NCBI GenBank assembly: GCA_947599905.1
Contig: CANQFR010000001.1
Span: forward strand, 31,062-95,061
Source of the DNA: an uncultured Lachnospiraceae bacterium
GTDB taxonomy: Bacteria; Bacillota; Clostridia; Lachnospirales; Lachnospiraceae
Length of the DNA: 64,000 bases
Direction of reading: 5' to 3'
This document shows, piece after piece, positions 208 to 42,100 of the stretch; positions within the stretch are counted from its first letter, which is position 1; each line of letters opens with the position of its first letter. The translations under genes were made by a program, and so were the position numbers. A model generated the notes under the pieces. It saw only the letters and a program-made list of their open reading frames with translations, did not search any database and was not told the DNA's origin.

Positions 208-1233
208 TTACCAACACATAACATTGCTATCGTTTGGAATAATTACCCCGTAATATGACGGGAGCATCTGGAATATCGCACAATCTGACAAAATCCCGCC
301 AGGCTTCATCTCACTCAGAAAAAATTCATACATATGATGTGGGCCGAAACACATAAAGTAAGAATACTTCTCATCCTTAGCAAGCCTGATGTGAGGAACG
401 ATAGTCATGCGCATAACCCTTTTACCCTGCTTCTCCGTGACATCATCGAACTTCATCTCACCATACCCATACTTATATGAAAGATATCTTGCAGCCATCT
501 GCAATGGCATTATCTTAAGCCATGTATACCACTCATCATATTTGAGCTGCATGACTTTGGACTCTATCTCGCCCAAAACATCATATGCACCATTCCCGAA
601 CAAATAAGAGAAACCCTCTAACGCAGAAAACATGCACGCCACGCCTCCTTTCGGAGCCTTACTGCGCATCACGTAATCCCCGGAAACATAAAGAATATCC
701 GAACGAGAGTCAAATCCATGCTTCACCGGAAAACTGGCTACCCACATTGGTGTCTTCTTGTAATCAAAATCATAATACATGGCTGGTGGAACGTCACACG
801 TTCCGACCAGTTTAAATAAATTCGGCATACCCCTTAACAAGGCTGATGAATTTCCGACCGCTACCTTTGCCTTCATCTTCTCCGAAAGAAGCCCGACTGA
901 GAACGACAATGAACAACCACGAAGATTTGCCAGTGCGTCATTCCCAATGTTCTCCTTCACGAAATCCCGATACGACCAGTAATTCAGACCCTTCTTGCCA
1001 ACAAGCTCCAATATGTACACATACACGGACTGTAAAACATATGCCTTTAATGCCTGGAAAGTGCCTGACTGCAATATGTATACCATATCCGGCTGTGAAA
1101 GCAATCTATCTAACGCAACTTCCAATAAAATCCTCGGAACATCCTCCCCATGCGTAACCTTTGTAAAAGGACTTAAAAAGAAATACTTTATTAGTGACTC
1201 CCTGTTCAATACACGTGGCCCGCGGTGCGCCAT
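208..1233 (-). CDS. hypothetical protein, paralogue of 31044-32099
   Basis: Long ORF; shares YRDFVKEN / YYDFDYKKTPMWVASFP / ILYVSGD / HYGV-like blocks with the 31044-32099 protein. Confidence 0.75.
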   Translation of the reverse strand: MAHRGPRVLNRESLIKYFFLSPFTKVTHGEDVPRILLEVALDRLLSQPDMVYILQSGTFQALKAYVLQSVYVYILELVGKKGLNYWSYRDFVKENIGNDALANLRGCSLSFSVGLLSEKMKAKVAVGNSSALLRGMPNLFKLVGTCDVPPAMYYDFDYKKTPMWVASFPVKHGFDSRSDILYVSGDYVMRSKAPKGGVACMFSALEGFSYLFGNGAYDVLGEIESKVMQLKYDEWYTWLKIMPLQMAARYLSYKYGYGEMKFDDVTEKQGKRVMRMTIVPHIRLAKDEKYSYFMCFGPHHMYEFFLSEMKPGGILSDCAIFQMLPSYYGVIIPNDSNVMCW

Positions 1234-1531
1234 TACAAATCGACCTCACTTCTATTACAAACATCATTAGAAACAAAACAGACATAACAAGTTCAACAAC
1301 ATTTATCAATATTTACAACGAATCAATAGGTGCAAACAAACCTCATGAAGATACTTCTCAAAACCGAAATGAATCAGCCCAAACCAGAAGAGAATATCAA
1401 AAACGATTTCATATTACAAATTGAAAAAATATGACATATTTCTCTGGCTTAACTTACACCGCTTAGCAACTCATCACATGCCATTTTACCGGTGCCTTAG
1501 AACAGCATTTTCAACTTTCTCCTGAAAAATC

Positions 1532-1909
1532 CTACTCATAACACAGGATTCGTACCCCATTTTCCATTGCCGCATGCTCGTAAAAATCCACCGTTATCCT
1601 CGTACAATCCTGCAGGTACAAAACAAACCACATTCCATACCCCGTGAGAGAACAGGCATACCCCTTCAAAGGCTTTGGAACATTCAGGACGGCACTCCTT
1701 CCAAGGGCAGTCATCTTCGCCTTTCCATTCACATACTCGACCTTGGCCATACCGCCAAAGCCCTTGCACTTATCAGGACTTACGAAAAACCCTGCATCCT
1801 TAAGGCACTTATCATCCTTAGCAGTAAAATAATGCTGGTTCCTTACATAATCAAACACCTCCACAGAACCATCAGGCAAATTAAACGCCTGCAAAGAAAA
1901 CTTCTTCAT
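1532..1909 (-). CDS. hypothetical protein
   Basis: 125 aa ORF in a same-strand gene cluster. Confidence 0.55.
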   Translation of the reverse strand: MKKFSLQAFNLPDGSVEVFDYVRNQHYFTAKDDKCLKDAGFFVSPDKCKGFGGMAKVEYVNGKAKMTALGRSAVLNVPKPLKGYACSLTGYGMWFVLYLQDCTRITVDFYEHAAMENGVRILCYE

Positions 1910-1926
1910 TTGTAAAAATACCTTCC

Positions 1927-2367
1927 TTATATAAACATAATATCCCTTGCGGATTTATAGCGGTATGGTACTCCCCTATCATCCAGCCAGAAACCGTCAT
2001 TCCTCAAACAGTACACGTCCGTGTCCTTGCCACAGCACAGCGACAGGAACACGTACCCAGTCCCCTGCTCTATTCTGTAATAAAAATCAACCGGATGAAA
2101 CGCATCCCTGAACACGAATATCCGTTCATCACTAGGAACAAACCTATTCTCGAACGCCCACATTCGGCCTGACTTATTAAAGAATGGAACCAGCATACCC
2201 CAATATCTTCCGAAATACGAAATATTTGGGTTATACACATGCGATATGCAGCACCCTTCCGGCAGATCCTTCTTCACACACATGCAAGTCGTTCCCGTAT
2301 CATAATCAATCACCATATATATTGGTCTGTTTCCATTGACTTTCACAGCCTGATATCGGTACATCAT
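1927..2367 (-). CDS. hypothetical protein of the clustered family ending in (L/A)R(E/D)xMF
   Basis: ORF overlaps the upstream stop (2364/2367); C-terminus SARDIMFI. Confidence 0.65.
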   Translation of the reverse strand: MMYRYQAVKVNGNRPIYMVIDYDTGTTCMCVKKDLPEGCCISHVYNPNISYFGRYWGMLVPFFNKSGRMWAFENRFVPSDERIFVFRDAFHPVDFYYRIEQGTGYVFLSLCCGKDTDVYCLRNDGFWLDDRGVPYRYKSARDIMFI

Positions 2368-2871: not shown

Positions 2872-3480
2872 CTACCTAAACATCATATCCCTTAAATCAT
2901 CTATCTTCACGGAAACGCCGTGCGTATTCGGCTTATCAAGCTTCCTAAACAGCATCTGCCCTGCAAGTGCCTCATATTCGCAACGCTTTCCGTCCTCGTT
3001 CCATATGACCACACGGTATGCCCCACCAGATTTGTAGAATGCGAAATTGGCTATACCATGCGTAAGCTTCACATACTTTTTATTGCCGAGATACCGAAGC
3101 CAAAGCACATTGTCTGACATCTGAATTATGTCACCAACATGCCTACCACCAAGACCCTCGCCCTTCCTCGGAAGCAGGCATGAATTCGCACCAAAATACC
3201 CAGCCGCCCTAATCCTTGCAGTCCGAAGCCATACATAAGGCACATCCGCTACCTTCTGAAGGTTATCGTAATTCACAAGCGTGAACTTATCGCCAGGCGC
3301 AACCTGTGTCAAGGACTGACCCTCGGCAGTGACGCCGCCTACGGTATGTCCTAACGCATTATCAACATACATCACCTGGAACACCGGTGGATTCTCATTA
3401 GAATACTTTATTGACAACTTAAGCAGTTCTTCATCTTTCGCCGCCACGAAACATACCCCCTTACCTTGGCAGACCTGCAC
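2872..3480 (-). CDS. hypothetical protein of the clustered paralogous family
   Basis: GGRHVGDIIQMSDN...RYLGNKKYVKL...NFAFYK; C-terminus IDDLRDMMFR. Confidence 0.7.
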   Translation of the reverse strand: MQVCQGKGVCFVAAKDEELLKLSIKYSNENPPVFQVMYVDNALGHTVGGVTAEGQSLTQVAPGDKFTLVNYDNLQKVADVPYVWLRTARIRAAGYFGANSCLLPRKGEGLGGRHVGDIIQMSDNVLWLRYLGNKKYVKLTHGIANFAFYKSGGAYRVVIWNEDGKRCEYEALAGQMLFRKLDKPNTHGVSVKIDDLRDMMFR

Positions 3481-4075
3481 CGAACATGACTTCCCGCAAT
3501 GTCACATACTTCATAACCTTGAAATTAAAATCCAAAATCCCTGGCTTTGATACAACCTTGGCTGACTTTTCACCAACCTCAAGCACGACCGTCGTGAAAT
3601 CACCAGACATCGAATTATAATCAAAATTCAGGAACAAATGAACAACGCCGTTCGAAACATTGTAGCCGTGCCAAATGCTCCTGTACTGACCCATTTTGAA
3701 CGGAAACAACAGGAACCTATCCGACCTTAGCCTTCCAAGCATCCTGTTCTCAATCAGAATGTACCTGCCTCCGCGGTAATTCACTGGAACAGGCTCAATG
3801 GCAAAAGCATCAATACCACCAAGACACTGTGAAGGGCTGCAAGGAAAAATATGCTCCCAGTCATCAGCCACATTTAGTACGCCAAAATACTTTCTGAGCA
3901 ATGCTGATCTCTTCTTTGAACCGATACCATACCTCTGAAGCTCGCCATCCACAGTCATGTGGTATTCTTCAAAGCTGAGTTTTGAAAAACTTACCTCATG
4001 AATCTTATTATTCACATAATCCTGGACAAGCATATCCCAATCAAAATCGCACTTCACAACCTGAACATTGTACAC
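3461..4075 (-). CDS. hypothetical protein, distant member of the clustered family
   Basis: C-terminus VTLREVMFGAGLPR; overlaps neighbour. Confidence 0.6.
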   Translation of the reverse strand: MYNVQVVKCDFDWDMLVQDYVNNKIHEVSFSKLSFEEYHMTVDGELQRYGIGSKKRSALLRKYFGVLNVADDWEHIFPCSPSQCLGGIDAFAIEPVPVNYRGGRYILIENRMLGRLRSDRFLLFPFKMGQYRSIWHGYNVSNGVVHLFLNFDYNSMSGDFTTVVLEVGEKSAKVVSKPGILDFNFKVMKYVTLREVMFGAGLPR

Positions 4076-8368: not shown

Positions 8369-8397
8369 ATTATACCATATTTCTCAGCCTTTGTCAA
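8369..8397 (-). promoter_or_regulatory. sigma70-type promoter
   Basis: Minus strand TTGACA-N17-TATAAT with TGG before the -10. Confidence 0.75.
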
Positions 8398-9778
8398 GGT
8401 CAACTGGCACAGTTTCTTCATTTCCTGTCACTATATTTTTGATATTGCGGATCAAGTGGCAACCGAAGTTCTGCACAAGCCCGGCAAATGCAAGGCCGCT
8501 CCTCGCAAGTACCCCTCCGCCATATCGCAGGAAGCCCTTATTTCCCCTATTCTTGGCATAATTCTTAAGGCTGTCGGACGTGAAACTGCGCAGATTGTCG
8601 CTGCCGCCGACCACGTCAAGCTTGAACCCTGTCAAAAGCCTGTTGCGCAATTTCTCCTTGCGCACCACCTTCATAACATTGCCACCTGAACCACCAGCCT
8701 TCAAATCCTTTCTGCCGCCTTCCAACTCCGACCTTGTTATTACGTCCGAGCCAAGCACAAGCTCCTGCATCCGTGGCATGCGCTTGAACAGCATCTCGAT
8801 TTCAGACGTCTTGCGTGCGGAGAAATAAGGTGCAATCTCCTGCGCAAAGAATGAAGCGTCATCAAAGCTTAAGGAAGAAAGATTCACCATCTGCCCAAGC
8901 TTCGCCCAGTTGAAGAACCTGGCATATGCCGACTCATCAAACAACCCGGCCAAATCAATCGGCAGACTCTGCGTATACTTATCATGGTTCAAGCCAAACT
9001 CAGGCGTGTACATTATCCTATTTATGATGAGATAATCACCACTTACGGCTATACTGCGAACCTTATCCCAGCCGCCAAAATCCCTCCTGACTTGTGCAGT
9101 GATAAAATCAACAACGGCCTTGAAATTTCCCTCAAGGTCATCACTACCCCCGAAGCCCGGTATTGACTCGAAACTCCTCGTAGCCTGACGTAACTCGACT
9201 ACTTTTCCGCCTATCTGAATACTCTGGGAGTCATACAACACCTGTGATTCAGCCTGTGCAGAAGTCTTAGTATCCTCAAATACAGCCTTCTTCGTCTCAA
9301 AGAATTTCTTACCAGTATAGGCTTTGCCTTCTGGCATTCCAGCTCCATTACTAGGCTCGGATTTCTTTGACTCGGACTTAAAAGCGTCGAATAAGGACTT
9401 TTTGCCGGATGACTCCTCTTTCTCCTCTTCCTCATCAAAAAGTTCCTTTATATCATCCTCTGAAGCAGTCTCCGAAGTATCACCAGAATATACCCCACCA
9501 AATTTTTCTGCCATCACAGCATTAAAAGACTTATCAGAATCACATATCACCGCTGGCGGGAACTCCACAGTACCCCTTGTCTGGCTGGAAGCCCTGTTTA
9601 CCGCAACATCAAGGGCTTCATCACCCTGATACCCGTCAGCCTGCGCTACAGCCTGTTCGTCAAGTACCTCCTGACAAGCCTCCATTGCCTGCACATTCGC
9701 ATCCTTAAAAAGCGCAGACACCGTAGGGTCTGAAAGCAAGTCCTCCATGCTAGACCAATTTCTTTCCTGCTCAGCCAT
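8384..9778 (-). CDS. hypothetical protein
   Basis: 464 aa ORF; acidic low-complexity stretch LFDEEEEKEESSGKK. Confidence 0.7.
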   Translation of the reverse strand: MAEQERNWSSMEDLLSDPTVSALFKDANVQAMEACQEVLDEQAVAQADGYQGDEALDVAVNRASSQTRGTVEFPPAVICDSDKSFNAVMAEKFGGVYSGDTSETASEDDIKELFDEEEEKEESSGKKSLFDAFKSESKKSEPSNGAGMPEGKAYTGKKFFETKKAVFEDTKTSAQAESQVLYDSQSIQIGGKVVELRQATRSFESIPGFGGSDDLEGNFKAVVDFITAQVRRDFGGWDKVRSIAVSGDYLIINRIMYTPEFGLNHDKYTQSLPIDLAGLFDESAYARFFNWAKLGQMVNLSSLSFDDASFFAQEIAPYFSARKTSEIEMLFKRMPRMQELVLGSDVITRSELEGGRKDLKAGGSGGNVMKVVRKEKLRNRLLTGFKLDVVGGSDNLRSFTSDSLKNYAKNRGNKGFLRYGGGVLARSGLAFAGLVQNFGCHLIRNIKNIVTGNEETVPVDLDKG

Positions 9779-9796
9779 AACAACCTACCCCCTTAC

Positions 9797-12700
9797 CTAC
9801 TTGTTTGCGTTCACAAGGAACGCACGAATCATCTTACTTAACAGCTTATACAACTTGTCATCGAAAGGCTGCCCGTAGTCACTTTGCAGCTTATTCGTCA
9901 TAAGCGTCACAACCTTTTCAATCTCTGACTGGCTTAGCTTACGAACACCCTGACGTTCTTCAGCGTTCTCTGCCACAGTTTCCTTTATCGTATTTTCGAC
10001 AGCCTGGGCATTCTCTTTCGTCACCTGTAGAGACTTCAAGCGCTGCAACCTTGCGTATTTTATGCGCTCCCCATTTGACATTTCAGACAAAGGTTTTTCC
10101 TGCGGAACCTGTGGCTGCGTGCCTGTAACTGGCTGCTGCATGCCACCGGACTGCTGTGGAACTGCAGGCTGCTGCCCTGCCTGGAAAACTGGCTGCGATA
10201 CCCCTGTAAAACCTGAATCAGGCTCCGACTTTATGTTAGCGTAAGCCCCCTCGCCAGGAGCCACGCCGCCTGATACCTCTCCGCCGCCATCCCTCTTTAT
10301 CTGGCCATTCGCATCAATGATACCAAGGTCATACATAATCTTCAAACGCCTGGGCACTGCATACTGTTCCTCATCAAAGAAAGCATTTATCATATCAGTT
10401 ATGGAGAACAGACCCCTCGGCGAGAAATCCCACAGAAGCTCCTGCCAACATGAGTATCCCATTTTGTTCGCAACAAAATTCGCAATACCACCTGACCTTG
10501 ACAATGACTTCTGCATTAGCTCTGTTATGTCGCTGCATGATGGGTCTGAAGTCCTTACTGCCGTCTGTACCAATCCTGGGAATCCAATACCGATAGGATA
10601 CTGACCGCCATTGTCCCTTGCAAGGTCTTCAAAGTACTTATCGCCAAGGCCATCGATGTGTGACGTCTCGCTTATACGGTTCTTGCACTGCTTCACGCAC
10701 ACACTATCAGGATTGCTATCATTCAGCACAAGATAAGGCTTAAATAGAACATGCTTATCGATATGAATATTGTTAATCACGTCCCTTGTCGTCTGCTTGC
10801 CGATGTAATCCCAGTTGCCGTCCTTATTACGAACCTTATCTACCTCCGAGTCCGACTGCACGTCGCCAGCCCTCATGGTATCGTTCCTACCCAGGAACCA
10901 GTCGTTACTGTACAGATTAAGGATGGAACGAACGATGCTCGCCCCGTTCACGTCTTCCTTGAACTTCTTTTTATCAGCAGTAAGCTGGAAGAAGCATATA
11001 TTGCTGGATGGCTCATTTGAACCGCACCCCTGCTCCCAGAACTTCTGCGGAAGCTCCTGGCCAAGAACGAAGATATCGGAGTAAAGCTCCTCAATACCCT
11101 TGAAGCCAGCCTTCTGCATTTCACTGAACACCTGCCATGACTGGCTTAACTTGCCGAAGAATGCGGACGCATACAGAGAACCTACCGACTTGGCGTTCTT
11201 GTATTCCTCACGGTACTGGTTAATCGTCATGTTCAGGCTTATTATCGTTGAATCCTTCGCCTTCTCGCCCTTGGCCTGCTCCTCGGCAAGCTTCGCCTCG
11301 TTCAGCTTTATCTTTGACTGCAGGTCATCCAGATTCTTCTTTATCTCGCTCTGGCTGCCACACTGGATAGCTGCCCTTATAATCTCCGAGCCTGCATCTC
11401 CATTCCAATTACCTATCAAAGAAGATATTCCGGTCTCAAAGCCAGTCAACTCATCCAGCACGATTGCGATACCGTCCTCGCCATTGAAAACATCATCATA
11501 CGTCTTCCTATCAGTTAACTTGAACTTATGCCTCAAACACAGCAAACCCATACAGAACATGAACGCCCGTAAGTATACCAAATCGAAATACGGTGAAGGT
11601 GCGCAATCCGCACTAAACAACTTTGCAACCTCTGGATTTGCAGAAAGCCATACCTTCGACTTAGTCCAAAAAGCCGCTGCCTCGCCATTCTCCAAATCAA
11701 AAGGATTATGTACGCCCGGATCAAGCGGAGTAAGCAATCCCCCATTTACTGAAAACATACCCCCTCCTGACAGATTGTACATCACTATCGCCATATCAGG
11801 CTTCCTGTCAAGATAAAACACAGGCTTACCTACTTTATTTCCCTTCTTACCTGTATCTGATATGGCTGCGGCAAGGATATTCATGGTCATTACCCCCTTG
11901 CCGGAACGGCTGCCAGCATATACATTATGTACAAGATTGTTCTGCATACTGATTCCAGAAGAGTCCTTTACAGAATAAAGCTCTTGACCTGAATAAGACT
12001 CTCCTATCAAAATCCTCTGCCAACTTGCCTTTGTGTTACGCTTTATATTCTCCTCGTGAATACGATACCCCCAAATTGGTGTTGCAAGCTTCAAGGACGG
12101 ATTACAGTCATATTGATAAGAAAACACATGAACAGGAAGCGCCTTACCGTTTGCGAGGACGCCTTCAGTCATATCATACGGCTTATGGAAAGACTCATTA
12201 GAATTCTGTGATACAATATTCTTATACAGTTCCTCCATTTCACCAACAGTACCTTTATAAAAATCAAACTTACTGCCACTTGAAACACGTACCCCTAGAT
12301 CCGCAAGAATATTTCCACTTATAGTCATGCGAGACAACACGTATGCACAAACCATACTATCCCTTAGCTTTACCAGTAAACCCTTGACAAAATTCATATT
12401 GTCTCCGGTGACGAAAGCCCTATCAATTATACCTTTATACTGCTCAGGGCTATAATCCTTTGTGAACTGCTCGTCTATAAAGCCTTTCGGGTATTTTCCC
12501 TCAAACGTTTTTAGATAAGCCTTCTCTAAAGCCTTATAAAGACCCTTAAGGTACATATTCTCCACATTCGGCCTTAAGTAATTCTGTGAATACAGCTGGA
12601 ACGAAGCACCATTTCCAGTCTTAATATAAGAATAATCATTCTTATTCAAAATCTCGGTAGTTTCAAGCCCACAGGCGTATTCAAGCATTTTATACGGATA

Positions 12701-13531
12701 ATAAACAACCTTATCAGACCCATAAATTTCATCGAAATCAAACTGCCTGTTATCCGAAATCTTTATCTCTGAACCAATCCTTGAATGCATACGTCGTGCA
12801 AGCTCGAACAATGTGGCAGTCTTCCTCTCTATCTTTACTGCCTTACCATTCTTGCACTCTATAAAAGAAGAACCGTCACGAAGTACCCCGACATAAGGAT
12901 TTGTACCAAACCCATCCTGAAGCAAAGATTCATATACCTTCATGATGCTTTCAAGAATCTCATATCTGTCGTCTGCGAAATTGTCATCATCCGCAATCAC
13001 ATGGAGCATCCAAGTATTATAACCGTCTGTTATGGACGTCCTCTTAAGCAGATCAAGCAGAAGCTTCATGTCGTTCAGCATGCATTCAGAGCCTTCTGCA
13101 TAATAATTCTCCGCCTTTATATTTGAAAACTTAACATGAAGCACCGAGGAAAGAAAATCCTTGACGTCATCCACCCCGCCAAAATCAGATATGCCAGTAC
13201 CCTCCAAGGAATAAAACACAGAATCCGCAAACTCCTCGTACCCGAAAGCTGGCTCTGACTCATCCACACGGCGGTCAAACAGCGAGTTATCACCAAACAT
13301 AAGCCTCGTCACAACGGATGCCATGCTCAAAGAGAATGCCTTAAGCCCAAAGTTTGCATTACTTGACTGGCACTCAAGCACCTCATCTATCTTCTTATCT
13401 TCAGGATCGTTCAGACCCAATGCGTCTGCAATCAGGTTCCTCGATACAGTCTTGATAAACTTATTCGTATTTTCAGGTGGCTTATAACCAATTACAACTT
13501 CCTGAAAGAACTTTAAAGTCTCACCAGTCAT
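9797..13531 (-). CDS. large VirB4/FtsK-like P-loop ATPase (T4SS-like or DNA translocase); Q/P-rich C-terminal segment
   Basis: Walker A AGSRSGKGVMTMN, Walker B GIAIVLDELTGFE, 1244 aa. Confidence 0.7.
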   Translation of the reverse strand: MTGETLKFFQEVVIGYKPPENTNKFIKTVSRNLIADALGLNDPEDKKIDEVLECQSSNANFGLKAFSLSMASVVTRLMFGDNSLFDRRVDESEPAFGYEEFADSVFYSLEGTGISDFGGVDDVKDFLSSVLHVKFSNIKAENYYAEGSECMLNDMKLLLDLLKRTSITDGYNTWMLHVIADDDNFADDRYEILESIMKVYESLLQDGFGTNPYVGVLRDGSSFIECKNGKAVKIERKTATLFELARRMHSRIGSEIKISDNRQFDFDEIYGSDKVVYYPYKMLEYACGLETTEILNKNDYSYIKTGNGASFQLYSQNYLRPNVENMYLKGLYKALEKAYLKTFEGKYPKGFIDEQFTKDYSPEQYKGIIDRAFVTGDNMNFVKGLLVKLRDSMVCAYVLSRMTISGNILADLGVRVSSGSKFDFYKGTVGEMEELYKNIVSQNSNESFHKPYDMTEGVLANGKALPVHVFSYQYDCNPSLKLATPIWGYRIHEENIKRNTKASWQRILIGESYSGQELYSVKDSSGISMQNNLVHNVYAGSRSGKGVMTMNILAAAISDTGKKGNKVGKPVFYLDRKPDMAIVMYNLSGGGMFSVNGGLLTPLDPGVHNPFDLENGEAAAFWTKSKVWLSANPEVAKLFSADCAPSPYFDLVYLRAFMFCMGLLCLRHKFKLTDRKTYDDVFNGEDGIAIVLDELTGFETGISSLIGNWNGDAGSEIIRAAIQCGSQSEIKKNLDDLQSKIKLNEAKLAEEQAKGEKAKDSTIISLNMTINQYREEYKNAKSVGSLYASAFFGKLSQSWQVFSEMQKAGFKGIEELYSDIFVLGQELPQKFWEQGCGSNEPSSNICFFQLTADKKKFKEDVNGASIVRSILNLYSNDWFLGRNDTMRAGDVQSDSEVDKVRNKDGNWDYIGKQTTRDVINNIHIDKHVLFKPYLVLNDSNPDSVCVKQCKNRISETSHIDGLGDKYFEDLARDNGGQYPIGIGFPGLVQTAVRTSDPSCSDITELMQKSLSRSGGIANFVANKMGYSCWQELLWDFSPRGLFSITDMINAFFDEEQYAVPRRLKIMYDLGIIDANGQIKRDGGGEVSGGVAPGEGAYANIKSEPDSGFTGVSQPVFQAGQQPAVPQQSGGMQQPVTGTQPQVPQEKPLSEMSNGERIKYARLQRLKSLQVTKENAQAVENTIKETVAENAEERQGVRKLSQSEIEKVVTLMTNKLQSDYGQPFDDKLYKLLSKMIRAFLVNANK

Positions 13532-22025: not shown

Positions 22026-23486
22026 TTAATCTCCTTTCTTATTTGAAAAACAGACCAGCCAGCCGTCATCATACACCTTTTCATACCCCTGATGAACAAG
22101 GTATGCATACAACGGGCTTTCCACATCGTAATATGGAACCTTTAAATTCCACTTGCAGAAAACGTACCCGTCAAAGGCGTAAAAATCAATTATCTGGCTT
22201 ATCTGTGCCTCCCCTCCATAACTTAAAAGCACGTCCGAATCAAGCACCCTGTTCGCCACCAAAGGATAAGCACCTACCGTAAAATCCTGATACCCCAATG
22301 TCTTGAGGTAAACAACATCTGGATCTGTAAACAAGCGTGAATCTGGAGTAAAACCGGCTTCTTCCATTGCAGACACAAGGCCATCGCCAACGTACCACAT
22401 CCTGTAGCCTTCCGACTTTGCCTGACTTATTCCGCTTACAAAGCCCATTACCGAAAACATCAGAGAAACAAGCACGATAATCGGCCTTACCCCAATAAAA
22501 GCCTTGGCAAACACTTTATCCGTCTTATCAAACAAACCGCACCCACTTGTAGCCAAATACAAAAACGGAAACAAGTAAATGCAGTGGCGTGCCGATGACA
22601 TGGACAGAAAGAAAACCACCGTTACGCTTACTATAATCCGAAACCGCCGACCCGTATCAAAAATGAGCAAAACGAACGCCGATGCCAACAAAAATGCGCA
22701 TATCACGCCAAGAACGGTCTTTGCGTCCACCGATGCCCAGTCCCCGTTCACCGCCCTCATCCACTTGTCCGAAGCGTGGAACATGTCAAACAGCAGTAAC
22801 TTATACCCATAAGGGTTGACAAGCAAAGACACGGCGCATGTAACGCCACACAAAATTTCCTCAAGCTGCCAGTCAAGCCACACGGCTGCAAAAAAGAAAA
22901 ACAGCGGCACGCTACCAGAATGGACATTGTTCCAGACGATGCACAACAAGAGCATTCGGTCAAAAACCAGCATCCTCTCCCGTTTGGAGCTTGAATCCCT
23001 CCAGTCCTGTAAAAGCACAAGCTCCTCCATGAGGAAAAGCACGCTCAATGAATACGCCTTGACCTTCACGAACACCATGGCATTCAAAAACACGCACAGC
23101 AGAATGAAGATACCCCTTGAAACGCTTCCTCCAAGCAAATCGAACCTTTTCAGGAACCTCGCCGTGCATACCCCAGTCAACAGGCATATGAAAGCCTTAA
23201 GCGCAAACACGCCCCAATCCCCGAACAAAGACCGAAACAGGCTTAAAACAATACAAAACAGCCACTCATGGTTTAGGTACTCGCCAAGCCCAGCTCCTTC
23301 CCACACAAGCCCCACAGCCGTGTTAAAGCCAAGCCCTGACAGCACGTCCGAACCCAAATCAGCCTGCCAGTAGTAATCCAAGTCCGCAAGCCCAGCATAC
23401 ACCCCGCACAGCGACAATAACAGCACGGGGGCAAGAAGCCACCAAGCCCCTGCCCCCGTAAATTTATCCCTTATTCTCGAACTCAT
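22026..23486 (-). CDS. polytopic membrane protein, GT-C glycosyltransferase-like topology
   Basis: Many hydrophobic segments; short external loops; soluble C-terminal tail. Confidence 0.6.
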   Translation of the reverse strand: MSSRIRDKFTGAGAWWLLAPVLLLSLCGVYAGLADLDYYWQADLGSDVLSGLGFNTAVGLVWEGAGLGEYLNHEWLFCIVLSLFRSLFGDWGVFALKAFICLLTGVCTARFLKRFDLLGGSVSRGIFILLCVFLNAMVFVKVKAYSLSVLFLMEELVLLQDWRDSSSKRERMLVFDRMLLLCIVWNNVHSGSVPLFFFFAAVWLDWQLEEILCGVTCAVSLLVNPYGYKLLLFDMFHASDKWMRAVNGDWASVDAKTVLGVICAFLLASAFVLLIFDTGRRFRIIVSVTVVFFLSMSSARHCIYLFPFLYLATSGCGLFDKTDKVFAKAFIGVRPIIVLVSLMFSVMGFVSGISQAKSEGYRMWYVGDGLVSAMEEAGFTPDSRLFTDPDVVYLKTLGYQDFTVGAYPLVANRVLDSDVLLSYGGEAQISQIIDFYAFDGYVFCKWNLKVPYYDVESPLYAYLVHQGYEKVYDDGWLVCFSNKKGD

Positions 23487-24676
23487 ACCCTGTTCCTCAA
23501 GATGCTTACCTTTACCACCGACATCCAGCTTCTGGACAGATCTGTAAAGATTACTGCCGCACTGTTGCCCTGCTGAGGATTATAGTAAACAACCAACTCA
23601 CCGGGGAACTCCTCGTCTGAACCGATGATCACATGGTTCAACACATCAGGCATCACCTTGAAGCTCACAGTGCCAAAACTTTCCATATCCTTGACCTGCA
23701 TCAGACCGATATCCTGAGAGAACAACGTATTACTCACCTGCATCACGTTATCTGAAGTCCTGACTGACAGCATCAGCGAATCCTTGCCGTCTACACGCCG
23801 AAGCACATCCTTGAAATACCTCCTATCAAGAGTGAAAGCATGGTCACTGGCAAACAGACCGATGTATGCGCTGTAATCCGCAAGCCTGGTGTCGTACCCC
23901 ACGAAAGCCTCGCCAAAGTCCGTCTTAAAGTAAATATGCCGCTCAAGCTTGGCTACCTCAAGAGTACCGCTCAGGCACAGAACCTTATCGATGAACGAAA
24001 TGGCACGATACCCCATTTTTACCCCAGTGAACACGCCCTGCTGGGCAAGAAAGTTACGCATCATGGTCGTGTATGCGGCACTGAAAGACACCACATAATC
24101 CTCCCCGAAGATGAGATGCCCGAACAGGCTAGTATCATTCGCCATATTCGGAAGCAGTGAGGAAGTAAAGAACTTCAGGCTCCTGCTCTCCATGGCCTCC
24201 GTCTCACTGCCTTCAGGCAACGAAAGCTCGATGAAAGGCTTCAGGTTATCCTTTATGGGGCGCATCATGAACACACGCTTGGAAATGGTGGGAGCTTCCG
24301 CAAAACCGGAATCCTTCGGCACCTCACATACCTCACACAGCACACGGTTGTTGTCCATGAGCGACATGCTCACTTCCGTCACCTTAGTCTGGCGAAGCCC
24401 CTTATAGGAAGAAAGGAAGCCACTAAAATCCTTGCTGGGAACCTGGAACATCGTCACGCCGTCAGCACTTCCAGACACCGAACAGAAAGACTCGTCCACA
24501 TTTTTCTTGTATGTAATCAACTGATTGATTGCAATCAGCTTTACCCCTGATTCGGAAACACTGAATATGATATTCTTCGTTTCCTCATTGGAAAGTGAAT
24601 CCTCTGCGACAACTGCCAAGTCCGACAGTACCCCAAGAAGCCTGTCAAAATCAGAAAACGTAATCTTCACAGCCAT
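23483..24676 (-). CDS. probable sliding clamp-like (beta-clamp/DnaN-like) protein
   Basis: 397 aa; DnaN-like N-terminal layout (FDRLLGVLSDLAVVAED...IIFSVSESGVKLIAINQL); embedded among replication genes. Confidence 0.45.
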   Translation of the reverse strand: MAVKITFSDFDRLLGVLSDLAVVAEDSLSNEETKNIIFSVSESGVKLIAINQLITYKKNVDESFCSVSGSADGVTMFQVPSKDFSGFLSSYKGLRQTKVTEVSMSLMDNNRVLCEVCEVPKDSGFAEAPTISKRVFMMRPIKDNLKPFIELSLPEGSETEAMESRSLKFFTSSLLPNMANDTSLFGHLIFGEDYVVSFSAAYTTMMRNFLAQQGVFTGVKMGYRAISFIDKVLCLSGTLEVAKLERHIYFKTDFGEAFVGYDTRLADYSAYIGLFASDHAFTLDRRYFKDVLRRVDGKDSLMLSVRTSDNVMQVSNTLFSQDIGLMQVKDMESFGTVSFKVMPDVLNHVIIGSDEEFPGELVVYYNPQQGNSAAVIFTDLSRSWMSVVKVSILRNRV

Positions 24677-25579: not shown

Positions 25580-27210
25580 GACTTCTCATATCTCCGAATC
25601 AAATAACTTAGCACCAAATATATGACGGATGACCATGATACCACGCATAACAAGTACAAAAACATCGGATGGTCATACCGTATATTCACCTCGCCTCCGA
25701 TATCGCCTGTCTTTATTACAATGAACTGGTTGCTTCCACAATAAACATCCGCATCGCCGTCTGCAACAAAACCATTGTACCAGAGTTTCGGAACCTGTAT
25801 TACATCATTCGCCCTTGCAATGACCGATACCCCCGTTACGCCTGACGAATACCAGTATTCCAAACCGTCCTCCAGCGAAAAGGCATGCGACATATTATAC
25901 CTTATATTTCCAAAATCCTCGACAAACCCTTCCGTAAAGTACTCGCCAGAAATCGTAGCCTCATGGAAATACACGCCTGAAGGAAGCTCATAATCCTTCT
26001 CACGCACAAGGTCTTCATTGCTCGTAAACAGGAAAACGACAACGATGCTTATGAAGCCGGAAACGGCAATCACATCCTTCACAACCGCCCTACAGCCATG
26101 CTTAAACCCTACAACGTACAAGGCAAGCAGGACGTAAAACCCGTACCTTAAGACCGTTGGATAGTAAATCAGGTTCGCAAGCCAGCCGAACCGACCGACA
26201 ACCCTGTAACCTACCCCAGTCCCTACAAGCCAAGCAAATGCGGCGATTATAATGGCTGCAAACCCCCTCCTGCCCGGCTTATGCCTTACAAGCAATACCA
26301 CAAGCACGGCAAGCGGAATGACGTCCACAAAACCTATTCCAGAAAACAGCCCTTCATACAGAAACGAACACACATGGAACACCACGCCGCCCAAAGGCAA
26401 CAGGCTGAACGTCTGGAGCTTCCCTGGCTCCGGCATTATGCTCCTGAACGTGCCTGAATGGTACAAGACGTTTCCAAGCACATACCCCGAAGCCACCAAG
26501 CACCACGAAGCAAGCCTTAGATACAGCCCAACCTTCCTTTTATCAAAGTACATCACAAAGATTATAAGGCAACATGCGAACGCAAACAGTGAACTCAGCA
26601 GGTGCGTGCTTACCAAAAGGAACCAGAACACTACCGCAAGACACAAAGCCTTCTCGCCGCCGTCCCTCACGCACTCAAGGAAGTACGCAAGAAAGAAACA
26701 AGCAATCCCGAACCCGAACAGGTTGACTGGCAAGCATGTCATTAACATCTGTGCATATGTGCAGTACCCTGACAAAACCAAAAACCCTATGAATCCAGAA
26801 TCCTCGCAACGGCATGCGCATGCAAACCTCGATGCGCCAAGGAACACCAGCACCGATGCCGCCAACAGGAACGCCTTTGCGAATGCCTCGTACCCCAAGC
26901 CTACGAAAGGCAGAAACGGGAACAACGTCACAGACGGATAATAAAAACTCACACCATAACCGATACCGCCAAGGTCGTTCCCGTAATACAGCGGAAGCTC
27001 GCCCCCCTTAAGGCAGTCAAGCACGTTCCACGCCCTGTTGTACAAAAACCTCATATCCGAAGAGCCTGACATCGTAGGGCATATGCTGTACAACAAGCAG
27101 AACACCACGGAGAAAATCAGCGCACTGAGAAGCCAGACCCTGAAACTACCCGTTATTAAGGGCTTCCTGCAAATACTTCTTTGCGACATCCTTCGCCTCC
27201 TGGCTTGCAT
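25576..27210 (-). CDS. polytopic membrane protein (GT-C / YfhO-like topology)
   Basis: About a dozen hydrophobic segments; DMRFLYNRAWNVLDCLKGGELPLYYGNDLGGIGYGVSFYYP. Confidence 0.6.
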   Translation of the reverse strand: MQARRRRMSQRSICRKPLITGSFRVWLLSALIFSVVFCLLYSICPTMSGSSDMRFLYNRAWNVLDCLKGGELPLYYGNDLGGIGYGVSFYYPSVTLFPFLPFVGLGYEAFAKAFLLAASVLVFLGASRFACACRCEDSGFIGFLVLSGYCTYAQMLMTCLPVNLFGFGIACFFLAYFLECVRDGGEKALCLAVVFWFLLVSTHLLSSLFAFACCLIIFVMYFDKRKVGLYLRLASWCLVASGYVLGNVLYHSGTFRSIMPEPGKLQTFSLLPLGGVVFHVCSFLYEGLFSGIGFVDVIPLAVLVVLLVRHKPGRRGFAAIIIAAFAWLVGTGVGYRVVGRFGWLANLIYYPTVLRYGFYVLLALYVVGFKHGCRAVVKDVIAVSGFISIVVVFLFTSNEDLVREKDYELPSGVYFHEATISGEYFTEGFVEDFGNIRYNMSHAFSLEDGLEYWYSSGVTGVSVIARANDVIQVPKLWYNGFVADGDADVYCGSNQFIVIKTGDIGGEVNIRYDHPMFLYLLCVVSWSSVIYLVLSYLIRRYEKS

Positions 27211-28165
27211 TTGGAATGTTGTCTATCTGTGACAGCAAATCACCCTGGTTCATGCGGTACTTGAGCAGATCGGAAAGCACGTCTTTCAAAGCGTCCATCC
27301 TTATCTGCTCCTGAAGCTGCTCCTCATCCTGCTCGTCGACGAAATCATCATCCGCAAAGAAAATCTCTGAAGCAGGCCTTAAATTGAAGTCCAGCATGCT
27401 CACGTCCGTGGAACCTTTATTAGGGTCGTAGTATATCAGGACAGCCCAGCACTTATCGTACATATTCCTGTCCTTGACAGGCCTCGTAGGACATCCTGGA
27501 TAGAACAACTGGCATGACTTGCCATCAGGCATATCCGTCTGCACGATATCCGGCGAAGGAGTATGGATGTGGCCGGATATCACCATGTCCACGCCGTCAA
27601 AGTTCTGTAGCCTGTTCAACTCAATGCCAGCATGCTCCTGATACCAGTTCGTTACCCCCTCAATAGTGTAGTTATTGTGCCCAAGCACCACGTTGCTTGC
27701 ACCGCCGCCAGCCACCTCAATATGATTGTACTCGTTGCCGTAATCCACCATGTTGAAGCGAACCTCTGGAACAGGCTCGCCCTCGTACCCATAATAATCG
27801 AAGTACCCGCCAAGCTCCTGCGCCGACTCGATAAGACCCAAATCAGACAGGAAGTTGAACTCTGGATACCCTCCAAGGTCGTGGTTACCCCTCAAGGCAA
27901 ACACCCTTCCGTACTGCTGCCATGAGCGGAGCGTCTTACAAAGAACACTTAAAACCTCCCTGTTCCTGATATTCGTGTCACGCCAACCAACGATGTCGCC
28001 AAGCAGTACCACGGCGCTTGGCTTGTACTTCTCCACCATTTCATTCATCTTACCGAGAACCCAAAAGCAATTCTCAAGGTAATTCGTATGCTTACCCGTG
28101 AACGTGTCACTGAAGTGTAAATCACCAAAAATCAGCACATTACCGCCAATCACGCTATTACCCAT
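27146..28165 (-). CDS. sbcD-like: Mre11/SbcD (gp47)-like calcineurin-type phosphoesterase
   Basis: ILIFGDLHFSD, VVLLGDIVGWRD, ALRGNHDLGG, VVLGHNNY, VISGHIHTP. Confidence 0.85.
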   Translation of the reverse strand: MGNSVIGGNVLIFGDLHFSDTFTGKHTNYLENCFWVLGKMNEMVEKYKPSAVVLLGDIVGWRDTNIRNREVLSVLCKTLRSWQQYGRVFALRGNHDLGGYPEFNFLSDLGLIESAQELGGYFDYYGYEGEPVPEVRFNMVDYGNEYNHIEVAGGGASNVVLGHNNYTIEGVTNWYQEHAGIELNRLQNFDGVDMVISGHIHTPSPDIVQTDMPDGKSCQLFYPGCPTRPVKDRNMYDKCWAVLIYYDPNKGSTDVSMLDFNLRPASEIFFADDDFVDEQDEEQLQEQIRMDALKDVLSDLLKYRMNQGDLLSQIDNIPNASQEAKDVAKKYLQEALNNG

Positions 28166-28395: not shown

Positions 28396-29664
28396 TTAAT
28401 GCTCGTGTTCGTCACCTTGGATTATCAAATGACCGCAGTTGGGACACCGAATCGTGGATACCCCCGTAGTCTTTAGCTCTTCATTGTACCTTTCGATGTC
28501 ACTGTACACGCCTTGCAGGTCTTCTTCAAGACTTTCAAGCCTTGTCATAGCAACCTTATAATCCTCAAAGATTTCCAGTACCCTGCTTAAAGCGTCAAGC
28601 CTTTCCGAATCCACAAGTTCCACGGATGGCGGCACAGAAATCCCTGACAGAGCCTCTTCCTCTGAAGCGAGCGCACCAAGCAAATCCAAGGCACTAGAAT
28701 CTATAGGACTTACCTCCGGATGAACCTTGACTGACGAAAGCTCCTTTGCTACCACATAAAGCCTTTCTATACCTGCAAGTACCTCATCATCAATTATACC
28801 AACTTCAGGGGCAATTTTTATATCTGCCAGCTCAGAAGCAATGCCTGACAAATTATAGATCGCATCCAGATCCTGCTGCTGCACCTGGAACGTCTGCGGT
28901 GGAACCTTTATTGAATCAATGGAGCTTTTCACTGATGCGGCAGAGCTCAGCACCACTTCGCCAGCTTCGAGCGAATCTGCACGTGAATCGCTAACTTTTA
29001 ACCAATCCACCATTTCCTGCGTTATGCCTTCTGCGCCGTCCAGCAGACCCTTTAAGGATTTTAACTCCGACTCAGTGCCGTTAATCTGCGTCACAAGCTT
29101 ATTCTTGTCATTGTTCAGGCGTGCGCCAGCTGAAGCAATTTCCTCCGACTTAAGCACGGTATTAAACATCTTATAGTTCTCAGAGCCAGTATTCTGTACC
29201 CCGATTTGCTTCTCGAAACAGCTTCGGCTGTTCAGCACCGTGTCGTCGAACGAAATTAACCCAAGATACTGCTGGATTGGCTCCGGCACACAAGGAACCT
29301 TGGTCAAAGTCTTGCCATTCTTGGTGGTAAAAATAAGGTCATCGCCCTTGTACATCTCATACAAGGACTGACCGTTAATATACTTATCCCGAAGAATGCG
29401 TACACCGTCCGAAAAATACGCCACCACACGGAAATAATCCGTGTTATCCTGTATAAAATCAACCTGCCTGTTGGGTCTGATATTGGACATCAAAACATCC
29501 AAAGCACGAAGCATTGCCGACTTGCCGCTGTCATTATACCCCTTGAGGTTTATGACGTTAGATTCATCGAACTCCACCATACCATGCTTTATCGACATGA
29601 AATTCCACACTTCCCAGCCTAACAGCCTGGAATACGTGTTTTCAGATTCTACAACCACAGACAT
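28396..29664 (-). CDS. sbcC-like: Rad50/SbcC-like N-terminal ATPase half with Zn-hook-like CxxC at the C-terminus
   Basis: NFMSIKHGMVEFDESNVINLKGYNDSGKSAMLRAL (Walker A); coiled coil; terminal RCPNCGHLI; no Walker B. Confidence 0.75.
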   Translation of the reverse strand: MSVVVESENTYSRLLGWEVWNFMSIKHGMVEFDESNVINLKGYNDSGKSAMLRALDVLMSNIRPNRQVDFIQDNTDYFRVVAYFSDGVRILRDKYINGQSLYEMYKGDDLIFTTKNGKTLTKVPCVPEPIQQYLGLISFDDTVLNSRSCFEKQIGVQNTGSENYKMFNTVLKSEEIASAGARLNNDKNKLVTQINGTESELKSLKGLLDGAEGITQEMVDWLKVSDSRADSLEAGEVVLSSAASVKSSIDSIKVPPQTFQVQQQDLDAIYNLSGIASELADIKIAPEVGIIDDEVLAGIERLYVVAKELSSVKVHPEVSPIDSSALDLLGALASEEEALSGISVPPSVELVDSERLDALSRVLEIFEDYKVAMTRLESLEEDLQGVYSDIERYNEELKTTGVSTIRCPNCGHLIIQGDEHEH

Positions 29665-29733: not shown

Positions 29734-30852
29734 CTACGCAAGTCCTGCATTACTCGGCATCTCGCCAGTGAAAGGTGCACCTGACGGAGCGCTAGGCGCA
29801 CTGGGTGCCGCCGGGGCTGCCGGGGTTGCTCCAAAATTGGCAAGGGTCTGATCCGCCGTTGTGCCGATGCCAGCCGCAGGAGTAACTGCGGTGCTGGGGC
29901 CGTTCAACTTATACAGTGCAATCTTATCCCTCACGGGCTTCATCACGGAATCTGCCACCTCGACAGTCTCTTCCATGCTTCTCAGCACGTCGAGAACCAC
30001 GACTTCCTGAGCCTTCTCAGGAGTCCAGTCCTCAGTAATCTTGTCGAAGTACTTCTCCCACTCGCCGTAACCCTGCATGGTCTTATAGGTCACCTTTAAT
30101 GCCCTTGCAGAACCCATTCTGTCGGGTTTCCCATTCTTGGGCTGATAGGTGAAGTTCAGAACCGCCCACAATCCAGCCGGACTTGTAGGAGTCTCCCCAT
30201 CGATGCTGTCATACCCGGCTTCCCACTTCTCCACGAAAGTGCGCTCCCTGATGGTATACCACATGGGCGTACCAACAATCTGGCCATCCGCAGTAAGCTT
30301 AGGCTGGGTGGTAAGCTGACCGTCTTTCTCAACGCAATCGATGACTACGATCGGGAACGTGAACCAACGCTCCGCCTGTTTCACCTTGAAACCACGAAGC
30401 AGCTCGATACGGTCGTTCTTGAGTAACTCCTGCTCTTCAGGCGTTCCGATGGCGATACCCCGACCTCTTGCGATGTCGGCATACTCATAATTATACAGCT
30501 CCCAGCAATCATTGATCGCATCGCACAGCGGGCAGGTGCCATCCCACTTAAGCTGCGGATCTTCGGAAGTCATACCATTCAGGCAACGAACATTGCCAAA
30601 GGTTCTTCCATCGATAACAGGATGAGCGTTGAACGCATCCTTTCTGAGCTGCACAGAGCCATCGGGGCCGATTACCTGATGATTCGGAACATACACCAGC
30701 ACCTTCTGACTGATCGGAACCTGGAACACAGGATAATTCGGATCATATGAGGTTACACGCTGCATCTCAGCAGTCTGTCCAGCATAGGACTTGGTGATGT
30801 TTTCCGCCTCTTCAGCGGTGAGCTTCTTAACCGTAGGTCTTTTCAATGCCAT
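29734..30852 (-). CDS. probable ssDNA-binding protein (T4 gp32-like)
   Basis: ATG 30852 preceded by AAGGAGGAACAAACT; CPLCDAINDCWELYN Zn-type motif; strong promoter and leader; adjacent to rad50/mre11-like genes. Confidence 0.55.
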   Translation of the reverse strand: MALKRPTVKKLTAEEAENITKSYAGQTAEMQRVTSYDPNYPVFQVPISQKVLVYVPNHQVIGPDGSVQLRKDAFNAHPVIDGRTFGNVRCLNGMTSEDPQLKWDGTCPLCDAINDCWELYNYEYADIARGRGIAIGTPEEQELLKNDRIELLRGFKVKQAERWFTFPIVVIDCVEKDGQLTTQPKLTADGQIVGTPMWYTIRERTFVEKWEAGYDSIDGETPTSPAGLWAVLNFTYQPKNGKPDRMGSARALKVTYKTMQGYGEWEKYFDKITEDWTPEKAQEVVVLDVLRSMEETVEVADSVMKPVRDKIALYKLNGPSTAVTPAAGIGTTADQTLANFGATPAAPAAPSAPSAPSGAPFTGEMPSNAGLA

Positions 30853-31008
30853 AGTTTGTTCCTCCTTAAAGGTTAAAATTTGATAGGTTGATAGTTTGAC
30901 GCTGAATTTAAAGTCTACAGCTAGACCTTTGCCCTTCATTGGCGCACCATTTCCAACTTAGGGCTATGTAGACAGCCAATAGGCTGGACTACCCCATTTC
31001 ATAAATCT

Positions 31009-37790: not shown

Positions 37791-38606
37791 TTATTCTAAT
37801 GAGAACGTCTCGACAGCCTCACGTGAATCTGCATACCCCAATAGGATATCTCTTACATCATCCTCATCGAACCATGTCACGAAATTATCCATATCCTTAC
37901 AATGCAGCTTCTCGCCGCCTATTTCCACCTCGCCGCCAATAAAACGCAGCATTGTTGACCCGTAAGGCACATGCCAATAGTTCTTATCGAACCTACTGAA
38001 AGCCCTCCGTCCAGTCCTATCATCATCAGGAATGCCAAGCACCTTCCTAAATAATTTAAGATACTCACACTTAATTTCAGAGACTGAAGAACCCATGGTC
38101 GCTATGGCTGGAAGCCCGATTGAGCGCAGGCTAAGGCAGTCGAAAATTCCCTCGACAAGTATTACAAAACCATTATACTCACGCCAAGACAACTCATAAG
38201 CCTGTGCAAAATTAAAAAATAAGCACTCCTTACTAAAGAACGGTGATGGCGTCGTCACATACCGCTTCTGATCGGGATAGTACCCAACAAAGGCGCAAAG
38301 GTTTCCACCATGATCTTCTATTGGAACTATATACCTCCCGTTCAAAAGAAAATTATCCTTATCAGACACAAGGCCAAGCTCCCTGCGCATGATTCCAAGC
38401 TCCTCGCCGGAATCTATCTGGCAAGTTCCAATATTCATCTCCTCGAACAAATCCCTGTGTGCCTTATCTGGATACCCCCTTAATTCACACAGGACTTTCA
38501 CATCATCCTCAGAATACCTTGACTTTATATTCCTGTACGCCGTCTCAAGTTCCTTAACGCACTGCCTGTAATATGGGAACACCTGTGACTGCGGAAACAT
38601 CGCCAT
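37791..38606 (-). CDS. DnaG-like primase / TOPRIM protein
   Basis: NGRYIVPIEDHGGNLCAFVGYYPDQKRYVTTPS, GFVILVEGIFDCLSLRSIGLPAIATMGSSVS, VLGIPDDDRTG. Confidence 0.75.
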   Translation of the reverse strand: MAMFPQSQVFPYYRQCVKELETAYRNIKSRYSEDDVKVLCELRGYPDKAHRDLFEEMNIGTCQIDSGEELGIMRRELGLVSDKDNFLLNGRYIVPIEDHGGNLCAFVGYYPDQKRYVTTPSPFFSKECLFFNFAQAYELSWREYNGFVILVEGIFDCLSLRSIGLPAIATMGSSVSEIKCEYLKLFRKVLGIPDDDRTGRRAFSRFDKNYWHVPYGSTMLRFIGGEVEIGGEKLHCKDMDNFVTWFDEDDVRDILLGYADSREAVETFSLE

Positions 38607-39123: not shown

Positions 39124-42100
39124 TTAGCCCTCCTTGCCACACAAATAATCGCCTATCGTAAGCACGTTAGCCCCTGCGACAATACCCCTCGCTATTGAGA
39201 TGGCTGAATTCCTATCCTGGCCTACGTTGCCAACAGCATACACCTTCTTAATTCCACGGGTGAACTCCGTGTAGAGCATATTCCTTGATAAAAACCCTGA
39301 AGCCCTTACCAATCCAACAGGGCAAACAACTATTGGATACTGGCTGCCCTGGAGTTTATGCACTGTTCCAGCATAAAACAGGTTGATTTTCGACAGGTCT
39401 TCCCCATACAATTCGTACCCGAAATTAAGCTGTGAATTCATCTGCCTCTGGCATCTGTAAAGGATATTGAAAGGCATATCCTGCATATAGTCGTAATACT
39501 CTACCACCACGAAATATGCGTTATCCTTACCGACCCAAGTTTCATCCTCACGCATATTATCAGGATAACTGAACCCAGCTGGAACTGAGCCTACCTCGTC
39601 CTCTATCTTCACATTCGTCGCATTCACTATTGCAACAATACGGCCTACATCGCCATTACATACCCCAAAACCGTACACCTTTTGGAACGTTTCATAATCC
39701 TCAGTGGTATACCACTGCATTGAATACATATTTGAATTATGAATTACCTTGTCGCCTATCAAGTACTTCTGATAGTCATCAAAGGACTTCACGGCGAACG
39801 TCTTGGAAAAACCTGTAGCCTTATTGAACATTGGCTGTAGAACCTTATTGAGCTGGATTGCACCCCAGTCATACTTCGCAGTACTGACAGGCGTTGCGAC
39901 CTGAATGTCGTCCGAGCCATACCCCTGCTTTATAAGCCCTGAAACGATTTCAGCAACCTTATGCTTCAAAACTTCCTCACTGCAAGGAACAAGCTCGAAA
40001 TCTCCGCCTGAGCGCAGCATCGCCCAGTCATCCTCGGAACTATGATTGTTTATCAAATCTGCATTCATCGTGATTTCAGAGCCGCTCGCCGCCCTCTTGC
40101 TTACCGCAAGGTACTGGCACGGCATGAACTTAAGCAGGTTCAGGAACGGCATGCCCTTCCCAATGGGCGAAAGCTGATGGACATCGCCGAACATATACAC
40201 CCTTGAGTTTGAATCAAGACGTTTCACCACCTTGTAGAGCAAATCGACCGTCACCATTGCCATTTCGTCGAAGATGTAATACTGCTGGCCAAGCCCGGCC
40301 TCATTCCTTTCCTCCGTGAACAGGCTCTCATCCGCAGTCCATACCCTGAACAACGAATGCATGGTCTTCACTGGCTTCTTCACTACCTCCTGCAACCTTT
40401 TCGCTGCCTTGCCAGTTGGGGCTGCAAACTTCACATCCCAATCAGGACAAAGCTTGCCGATGCAGTATACGAAACAGGCAGAAACGGTCGTCTTGCCACT
40501 TCCTGCGGAGCCTGCCACGCAACCAGAATTATGAACTAACAAATGCACACTCTTCCTCTGCTCAGGCTCTAGCTTAAAGCCTACAACCCCTTCATATTCA
40601 TCAATACAAACATCTATATCTGCGTCCTTAAGGCCGGACTCCTGCTTAGCCATTTTCAGGAAGAAGTCAAAAATCACAAGCTCCTTACGGAGCAATGACA
40701 CTGAAGTGACGTACCCGGCAAAAGTTACCCCAAGACCTACCTCTATGTACTTATCCAGCGCAGACCAAAGCTCCTTACCATACAAATACGCTGAATAAGT
40801 GCCATGAGTATCTTTCTTAAAATCAGACCAAGGATAATTGAACACCGTGTTCAGATAATGCAGGCAATTCTCCCTTACCGTATCCGAAACAAAAGTTCCC
40901 ATGGTGGTACACTTCTCATACTTCAACTTCGTGATTGAAACGCCTACCCCGTGCGCCTTGTTGTCCGCAAGAACGCACATGGTGTCATTTACCCCTGAAT
41001 CCATGACGTATGCGTTCAGCATCGCCACGCTCCGAAGCCCACCCTGCGCCTTGCCCATGCACTGAGCCACAATATCCACGTCCTGGAATGACAAATTTGA
41101 AATCACCTGGATCGCATAGGGGTCTGAATTGAGCAATTTACTAAGGCTTATTCCCTCTTTCAGACATAGATCACATACATCCGAAAGCGATACCCCTGTG
41201 ATAGCTGAAATCATTCCAGCGTAAAACTTCTCAGGGCTTCCAAACGCCACACGGCAAAACTGCATATACCGCATCGGAAGATTTACCTTCTCACCACGGA
41301 GCATATAACCAATGACTTCCTCAAAGTCATCTATCAGCATAAGACGTTCAGCCTCTCCAGAACCCTCGAAATTACCAAGGTACTTCTTAAGTAGAGTCCT
41401 CCCTGTCATGCACTTTCCAGTCGGCTTATTATGCATCGTTGAAAGCACCTTACCAGCCAGCTCCGCAATGCAAGGCTCAGGCTTGTCCAAGTCAAGTGCA
41501 TACCCCTCACGAAGCTGCTTCTTAAACGCCGCAAGCTTCGCCTCAGCACCATACAAAACTTTCTCAAGTTCCTCGTACCTCCTGGTATCCACTGAAACTT
41601 CACACCTTGATTCCTTCGTAAAAGGCTTAGCCGCCACAGGCCTCGTTGCGTCCGCAACCTCCTCATACTTTTCAACTGGAACTGTATACGGCAATGTCGC
41701 CGAACAACGCCTCAAAGACAGAAGCTGCGCACCCCTCGCAATCACACCACTCTTTAGGGCTTCCTCAAAGGCTTCCGACAACGGAGTGCCAGTACCCAAG
41801 TCTCCAGACCTAAGTACATCCGCATGATACGGCTCTATTGACCATATATCACCATTTTTACCGAACTTAAACAACGTCAAATAATTTGACTTCTGCTTCG
41901 TGCCACAGCGCAAAGTACCCATGACCCTTACGAAATCGCCTACCGAACAACCGTCCAGATACACGCACACCTGACCGTTCACAGCAACGTATGAATCACA
42001 CACACCGTTCATTCGAAGATATGCCTCGTCCTTGGAAAACCCAGCCGCAAGCACATCCAATGAAACAAAATCGCCGCCATTGCAGGACACATTCTGAAAC

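Follow-up and report, generated by a model that had tools for sequence, protein, structure and literature searches.

The six-base word GGGGTA was found to be a selected DNA word in a 95,061-bp metagenome contig (hereafter C1): it lies on one strand only, exceeds its synonymous expectation about fourfold, is evenly spaced and is conserved, with turnover of the individual sites, in the distant plasmid pXO16. An original prediction had noted its use in all three codon phases and had inferred selection on the nucleotide sequence; the pattern confirmed here is larger than that, being strand-exclusive, evenly spaced and common to a distant plasmid. The word is best explained as a selected, strand-polar signal that recurs at controlled intervals throughout a giant, unidirectional, pXO16-like element, and it is probably read by a replication or DNA-transfer machine running along DNA. 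A wider proposition, which we regard as evenly balanced between true and false, is that, in a family of giant conjugative-type elements, each genome spells out the element's own start sites for primers (or for a motor) in a six-base word, strict in form and confined to one strand, gaps being actively kept below ~1-1.5 kb in elements whose proteins have diverged to ~25-40% identity; if this holds, GGGGTA would act as a ruler along the whole genome for the synthesis of the lagging or the transferred strand. Chi, KOPS and similar oriented words in genomes have each revealed a DNA-reading machine. The word described here is conserved, strand-exclusive and spaced by selection, and the elements that carry it include pXO16, a plasmid for whose rapid, relaxase-less transfer there is as yet no explanation.

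Strand, codon phase and codon choice of GGGGTA

The window, i.e. the whole stretch of 64,000 nucleotides that was analysed, corresponds to bases 31,062-95,061 of C1, and positions given below for C1 features are those of the window unless stated otherwise. C1 belongs to a genome bin of 276 contigs (2.83 Mb) and represents an incomplete piece of an element. Its minus strand holds 116 of the 116 called genes, with a coverage of 97%. At 47%, the GC content of C1 is below the 51-57% of the other bin contigs that were sampled, in which GGGGTA is low and strand-balanced, so that the membership of C1 in that host remains open; no dense GGGGTA was found in the other contigs of the bin.

The minus (coding) strand of the window holds 140 copies of GGGGTA, which reads TACCCC in plus coordinates, and the plus strand holds none; over the whole of C1 the split is 215:0, all sites lying on the gene-carrying, G-rich strand. 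Six of them (244, 828, 1553, 1638, 1659 and 2196, minus strand) are found between positions 208 and 2367, spread over three genes (208-1233, 1532-1909 and 1927-2367) and over all three codon phases. These six sites and a seventh at 47435 had been quoted in the original prediction; all seven are real, in the phases given there, and fall within the peptides SYYGVII, LLRGMPN, ENGVRIL, SLTGYGM, PLKGYAC, RYWGMLV and NWKGYPL respectively. Tabulation of the phases gave 59/25/48 for the window, with 8 further sites not wholly coding, and 85/43/79 for the 207 sites in C1 genes, phase 1 being the least used. Phase usage is thus unequal but far from the one overwhelming frame that would have refuted selection on the nucleotide sequence.

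For the coding strand of C1, Markov models (orders 1-3) predict 27-53 sites, whereas 215 are observed. Synonymous shuffling, in which codons were swapped among all genes while every protein and the codon usage were kept, yielded 48.6±5.8 sites in C1 genes compared with 207 observed, and the excess was present in each phase taken separately (85 vs 12.9, 43 vs 16.4 and 79 vs 19.3). Since all three phases exceed the synonymous null and no frame dominates, selection acts on the DNA word, as had been proposed, and not on a peptide or a codon pair. The same claim is backed by an excess of sites outside coding sequence (14 vs 6-9 expected in C1, 200 vs 121 in pXO16), by the few coincident sites in orthologues and by the greater use of permitted positions when they are isolated, the last two being described below.

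A separate observation concerns GGGG outside GGGGTA, which is scarce on the coding strand of C1 (GGGGGA 3 vs 55, GGGGAA 8 vs 46 and GGGGTC 5 vs 35 expected from composition), as if GGGG were avoided on this strand except within GGGGTA.

Spacing and turnover of the sites in C1 and pXO16

When the large ATPase was used as query against 72,556 plasmids, the sole matching kind was the 349.6-kb plasmid pAM65-52-2-350K of B. thuringiensis sv. israelensis (NZ_CP013277.1), which is identified as pXO16 from its size, the host serovar and PMC9673590, the deposited pXO16 record not having been compared. C1 and pXO16 have ~20 colinear orthologues of roughly 24-41% identity, and the core set colinear in both comprises the polymerase, the TOPRIM protein, SbcCD, a clamp-like protein, the methylase and the large ATPase. 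On the minus strand of C1, the genes for an SbcD-like phosphoesterase (27146-28165) and an SbcC-like ATPase (28396-29664) are in synteny with pXO16, and a possible sliding clamp (23483-24676) and a possible gp32-like single-strand binding protein (29734-30939), both from our own reading of the sequences, have orthologues there. In pXO16, 386 of 388 called genes and all listed annotated CDS are on the plus strand; one-strand genes with uniform G skew are a trait of pXO16-like giant elements that C1 meets. The two elements also have in common the polarity and evenness of GGGGTA and an array of small paralogs adjoining the large ATPase, whereas they differ in GC content (33% in pXO16 vs 47% in C1) and in the size of the paralogs. 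The array of C1 comprises ~47 paralogous genes arranged in tandem on a single strand, each coding for ~200 aa (mean identity 21%); they lie partly to the left of the window (C1 bases 1-29,412) and partly at window positions 3461-4075; its pXO16 counterpart is made of ~150-aa genes beside the ATPase, at 184.5-207 kb. The 95-kb C1 piece showed neither the aggregation nor the transfer regions of pXO16, and the conjugative transfer and aggregation phenotype is known only for pXO16 (PMC9673590). As far as the searched collections show, C1 is the first pXO16 relative outside B. thuringiensis: no further relative was found among 392 class, 399 phylum, 200 family, 84 other-class and 392 order genomes, nor in two scans of genome contigs, and the known GGGGTA-bearing elements are these two only.

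GGGGTA is the top over-represented 6-mer of pXO16, with a strand split of 657:5, and is present all round the circle at 37-54 sites per 25 kb; synonymous shuffling gave 91±8 sites where 457 are observed. The flanks differ, pXO16 having AGGGGTA(G/T) and C1 a weaker preference. In aligned orthologous genes of C1 and pXO16, 4 of 42 sites coincide, implying that the sites have moved between the two elements, and among 41 divergent paralogs 58 sites occupy 45 distinct alignment positions. A 4.4-kb region of pXO16 (162,887-167,323), with no ORF of more than 90 codons and almost no G skew, holds 8 GGGGTA against 0.4-1.3 expected, their orientation and density being unchanged. The same region contains at least 12 hairpins, of which the arms GCATAGA...TGTATGGTGTT are conserved and the inner stems variable but paired; it has no Rfam or tRNA match and could be an origin, a transfer site or an RNA array.

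The sites of C1 are on average 442 bp apart, with a maximum of 1,559 bp. Their counts in 4-kb bins display a variance/mean of 0.17, which is below Poisson and the lowest among 48 common 6-mers, and none of 5000 uniform random placements was as even (0/5000). The rate at which the next site is met climbs with distance from the last one, from 1.2 to 6 per kb. Within C1 genes, 524 positions permit GGGGTA without protein change, of which 22% are used when another site lies within 50 nt and 88% when no other site lies within 450 nt; the use of permitted positions rises with this distance in pXO16 as well, from 10% to 69%. Together with the synonymous excess and the evenness, this dependence on the distance to neighbours makes a well-supported case that the DNA word is selected, that its sites turn over and that their spacing is controlled. 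For pXO16, coding sites alone are uneven (variance/mean 1.02) whereas all sites together are even (0.34), so that the non-coding sites fill gaps. The spacing of GGGGTA is itself under selection.

Candidate readers of the word

The reading preferred here, though we give it slightly less than an even chance, is that GGGGTA is the lagging-strand priming site of the element's split DnaG-type primase, with the reader, the replication direction and the primer sequence all inferred. Genes and G excess all run one way, so that, assuming a fork co-directional with transcription, the GGGGTA strand would be the lagging-strand template. GGGGTA would be recognised by a primase whose TOPRIM catalytic part and CHC2 zinc-finger part are two distinct proteins; synthesis would begin with ATP opposite the T, the 3' A would go unread, as in the Firmicutes site CTA, and the product would be pppACCCC. 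A start site of this length would be rare by chance, so that selection would have to supply the sites, long gaps would be penalised and close repeats would be unneeded. If this is a priming site, Okazaki starts should be predictable from sequence, which is testable in a culturable plasmid.

An element-encoded DnaG-type primase, in the form of a TOPRIM protein without zinc domain, is present in both C1 (271 aa, 37791-38606, minus strand) and pXO16 (WP_000389279.1), the two being 41% identical, and makes a candidate reader of the word. In pXO16 there are also genes for a DnaB-like helicase and for a CHC2 zinc protein distinct from the TOPRIM protein (WP_000365721.1); the absence of this CHC2 partner from the C1 contig, which is incomplete, counts against the primase. 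The minus strand of C1 also encodes an NAD-dependent DNA ligase-like protein (61485-62435) and a family A DNA polymerase (48017-52474), 41% identical to that of pXO16 and interrupted between residues ~770 and ~1140 by an intein-like LAGLIDADG insert with few GGGGTA. The start site of Firmicutes DnaG is 5'-CTA (PMC5429622) and that of T7 primase 5'-(G/T)2GTC, with ACCC primers (PMC12839067); by analogy, GGGGTA looks like a fusion of the two. Sites recur once per 440-530 bp, which is the right order for Okazaki starts, and polarity (215:0 and 657:5), even spacing and persistence in the gene-free region of pXO16 all favour priming by the primase. Against it, a six-base site would be unusually strict, 3-5 bases being sufficient for known DnaG-type sites. 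The primase sites of T7 itself are split 118:117 between strands, without bias, and are consequently uninformative as a positive control.

The main objection to a primase comes from the 215-kb plasmid of B. velezensis US1 (NZ_CP076292.1), which has homologous TOPRIM, CHC2, DnaB and polymerase and a stronger skew, yet carries GGGGTA at the expected level (134 vs 123). Among unidirectional giant elements it represents a third kind, in which SbcCD, gyrase and FtsK homologues are also found. Such a replisome alone, therefore, does not require GGGGTA. Nothing comparable to the GGGGTA pattern was seen in T7, SPO1, pBtoxis, a pBtic235-like prophage, host contigs or gut phage contigs, including the gut phage contigs with the nearest polymerases. 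No homologue of the large ATPase or of the adenine methylase was found in US1; both proteins thus track the word, in a sample of three, and both head the rival readers.

For the large ATPase, GGGGTA would be a polarity signal, KOPS- or SRS-like, serving one-way movement during segregation or relaxase-less transfer and read by this protein or by an FtsK/SpoIIIE protein of the element, which we consider unlikely but worth keeping in view. The ATPase, kept in both word-bearing elements, is encoded in C1 at 8384-13531 (minus strand) as a two-gene version (464 + 1244 aa) of the 1440-aa ATPase of pXO16, with the Walker motif AGSRSGKG and YLDRKPDMA; its putative VirD4/FtsK-like nature was judged by eye only, Pfam giving no match for this ATPase. 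The strand polarity is complete round the whole circle, an FtsK/SpoIIIE protein is encoded by pXO16, and transfer of this plasmid is very fast, ~350 kb passing within 3.5-4 min, and neither a relaxase nor an oriT is known for it (PMC9673590), so that a motor signal would be a pointer to the missing transfer mechanism. The FtsK protein of pXO16, however, matches FtsK_SpoIIIE only, with no KOPS-reading FtsK_gamma in Pfam at E<=0.05, and no FtsK was seen on the C1 part. In addition, the same polarity round a circle gives a direction but no end point, and known KOPS are far sparser than one site per ~0.5 kb.

Recognition by the conserved orphan N6-adenine methylase (58769-60661, minus strand, motifs SCGSGN and NPPY), which would mark one strand at regular intervals for self-recognition, repair strand choice or protection, is a clearly weaker proposal, made without modification data. 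The enzyme is 33% identical over its full length between the two word-bearing elements, and the site is asymmetric with an A on both strands; nevertheless, a mark alone demands neither one orientation nor a limit on gaps, and a literature search found no methylation motif of this kind.

Only slight credence is given to an element acting in mRNA as GGGGUA, either a ribosome-binding or another RNA-protein site. As the genes all run one way, mRNA and lagging-strand template cannot be separated by orientation, and 17 of 215 sites in C1 and 77 of 657 in pXO16 do occupy the Shine-Dalgarno slot, 5-18 nt ahead of a start codon. About 90% of the sites are elsewhere, however, mostly within genes and in all frames, AGGAGG-type sites dominate the starts, the ribosome-slot sites are part of the same spaced set, and density is unchanged in the gene-free region of pXO16. 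We read the ~10% that double as ribosome-binding sites as cheap dual use.

A Chi-like recombination signal for RecBCD/AddAB-type enzymes or for those of the element is very improbable: the word is oriented, and a RecD-like helicase (1027 aa, 39124-42207, minus strand) and SbcCD-like genes are present, but Chi sites would not be expected to have their spacing controlled at 0.5 kb. A Chi word of the host was rejected, the 2.7-Mb host bin having ~400 GGGGTA, balanced between strands and fewer than a reversed control word. Evasion of a type III restriction enzyme needing head-to-head sites has barely any support beyond the resemblance of 215:0 to the EcoP15 site CAGCAG of T7 (0:36), as it predicts the loss of one orientation but neither the 4-fold excess of the other nor its controlled spacing, and no more than ~1-4 reverse sites are expected in C1 anyway. 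Lastly, although the coding strand of the element is G-rich, a by-product of G skew, codon usage, codon pair or peptide motif can in practice be dismissed, being excluded by the synonymous shuffles (49 expected vs 207 observed in C1, 91 vs 457 in pXO16), by orthologue turnover and by US1, more skewed and with only the expected number, the other controls showing nothing alike.

Comparison with known oriented words

KOPS (read by FtsK), SRS (read by SpoIIIE) and Chi are, like GGGGTA, oriented and over-represented short words on the G-rich strand. GGGGTA differs from all three in being far denser, in keeping one orientation round an entire circle, in its spacing control and in the absence of host use. 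The type III restriction bias of T7, which keeps all its CAGCAG one way with respect to EcoP15, similarly leaves sites in one orientation, and our recount by strand (0:36) recovered this known bias as a check; in GGGGTA, by contrast, the orientation used is in excess and its spacing is controlled. The start sites of DnaG-type primases (T7 GGTC-type, Firmicutes CTA, T4 GTT) resemble GGGGTA in form, a run of G with T and a single 3' base after it; they are read on the lagging-strand template, as is inferred for GGGGTA, and TOPRIM and CHC2 parts are encoded by the element, the CHC2 part so far in pXO16 only. GGGGTA stands apart from them by its six bases, its strand exclusivity and its evenness, the sites of T7 itself being neither exclusive nor even.
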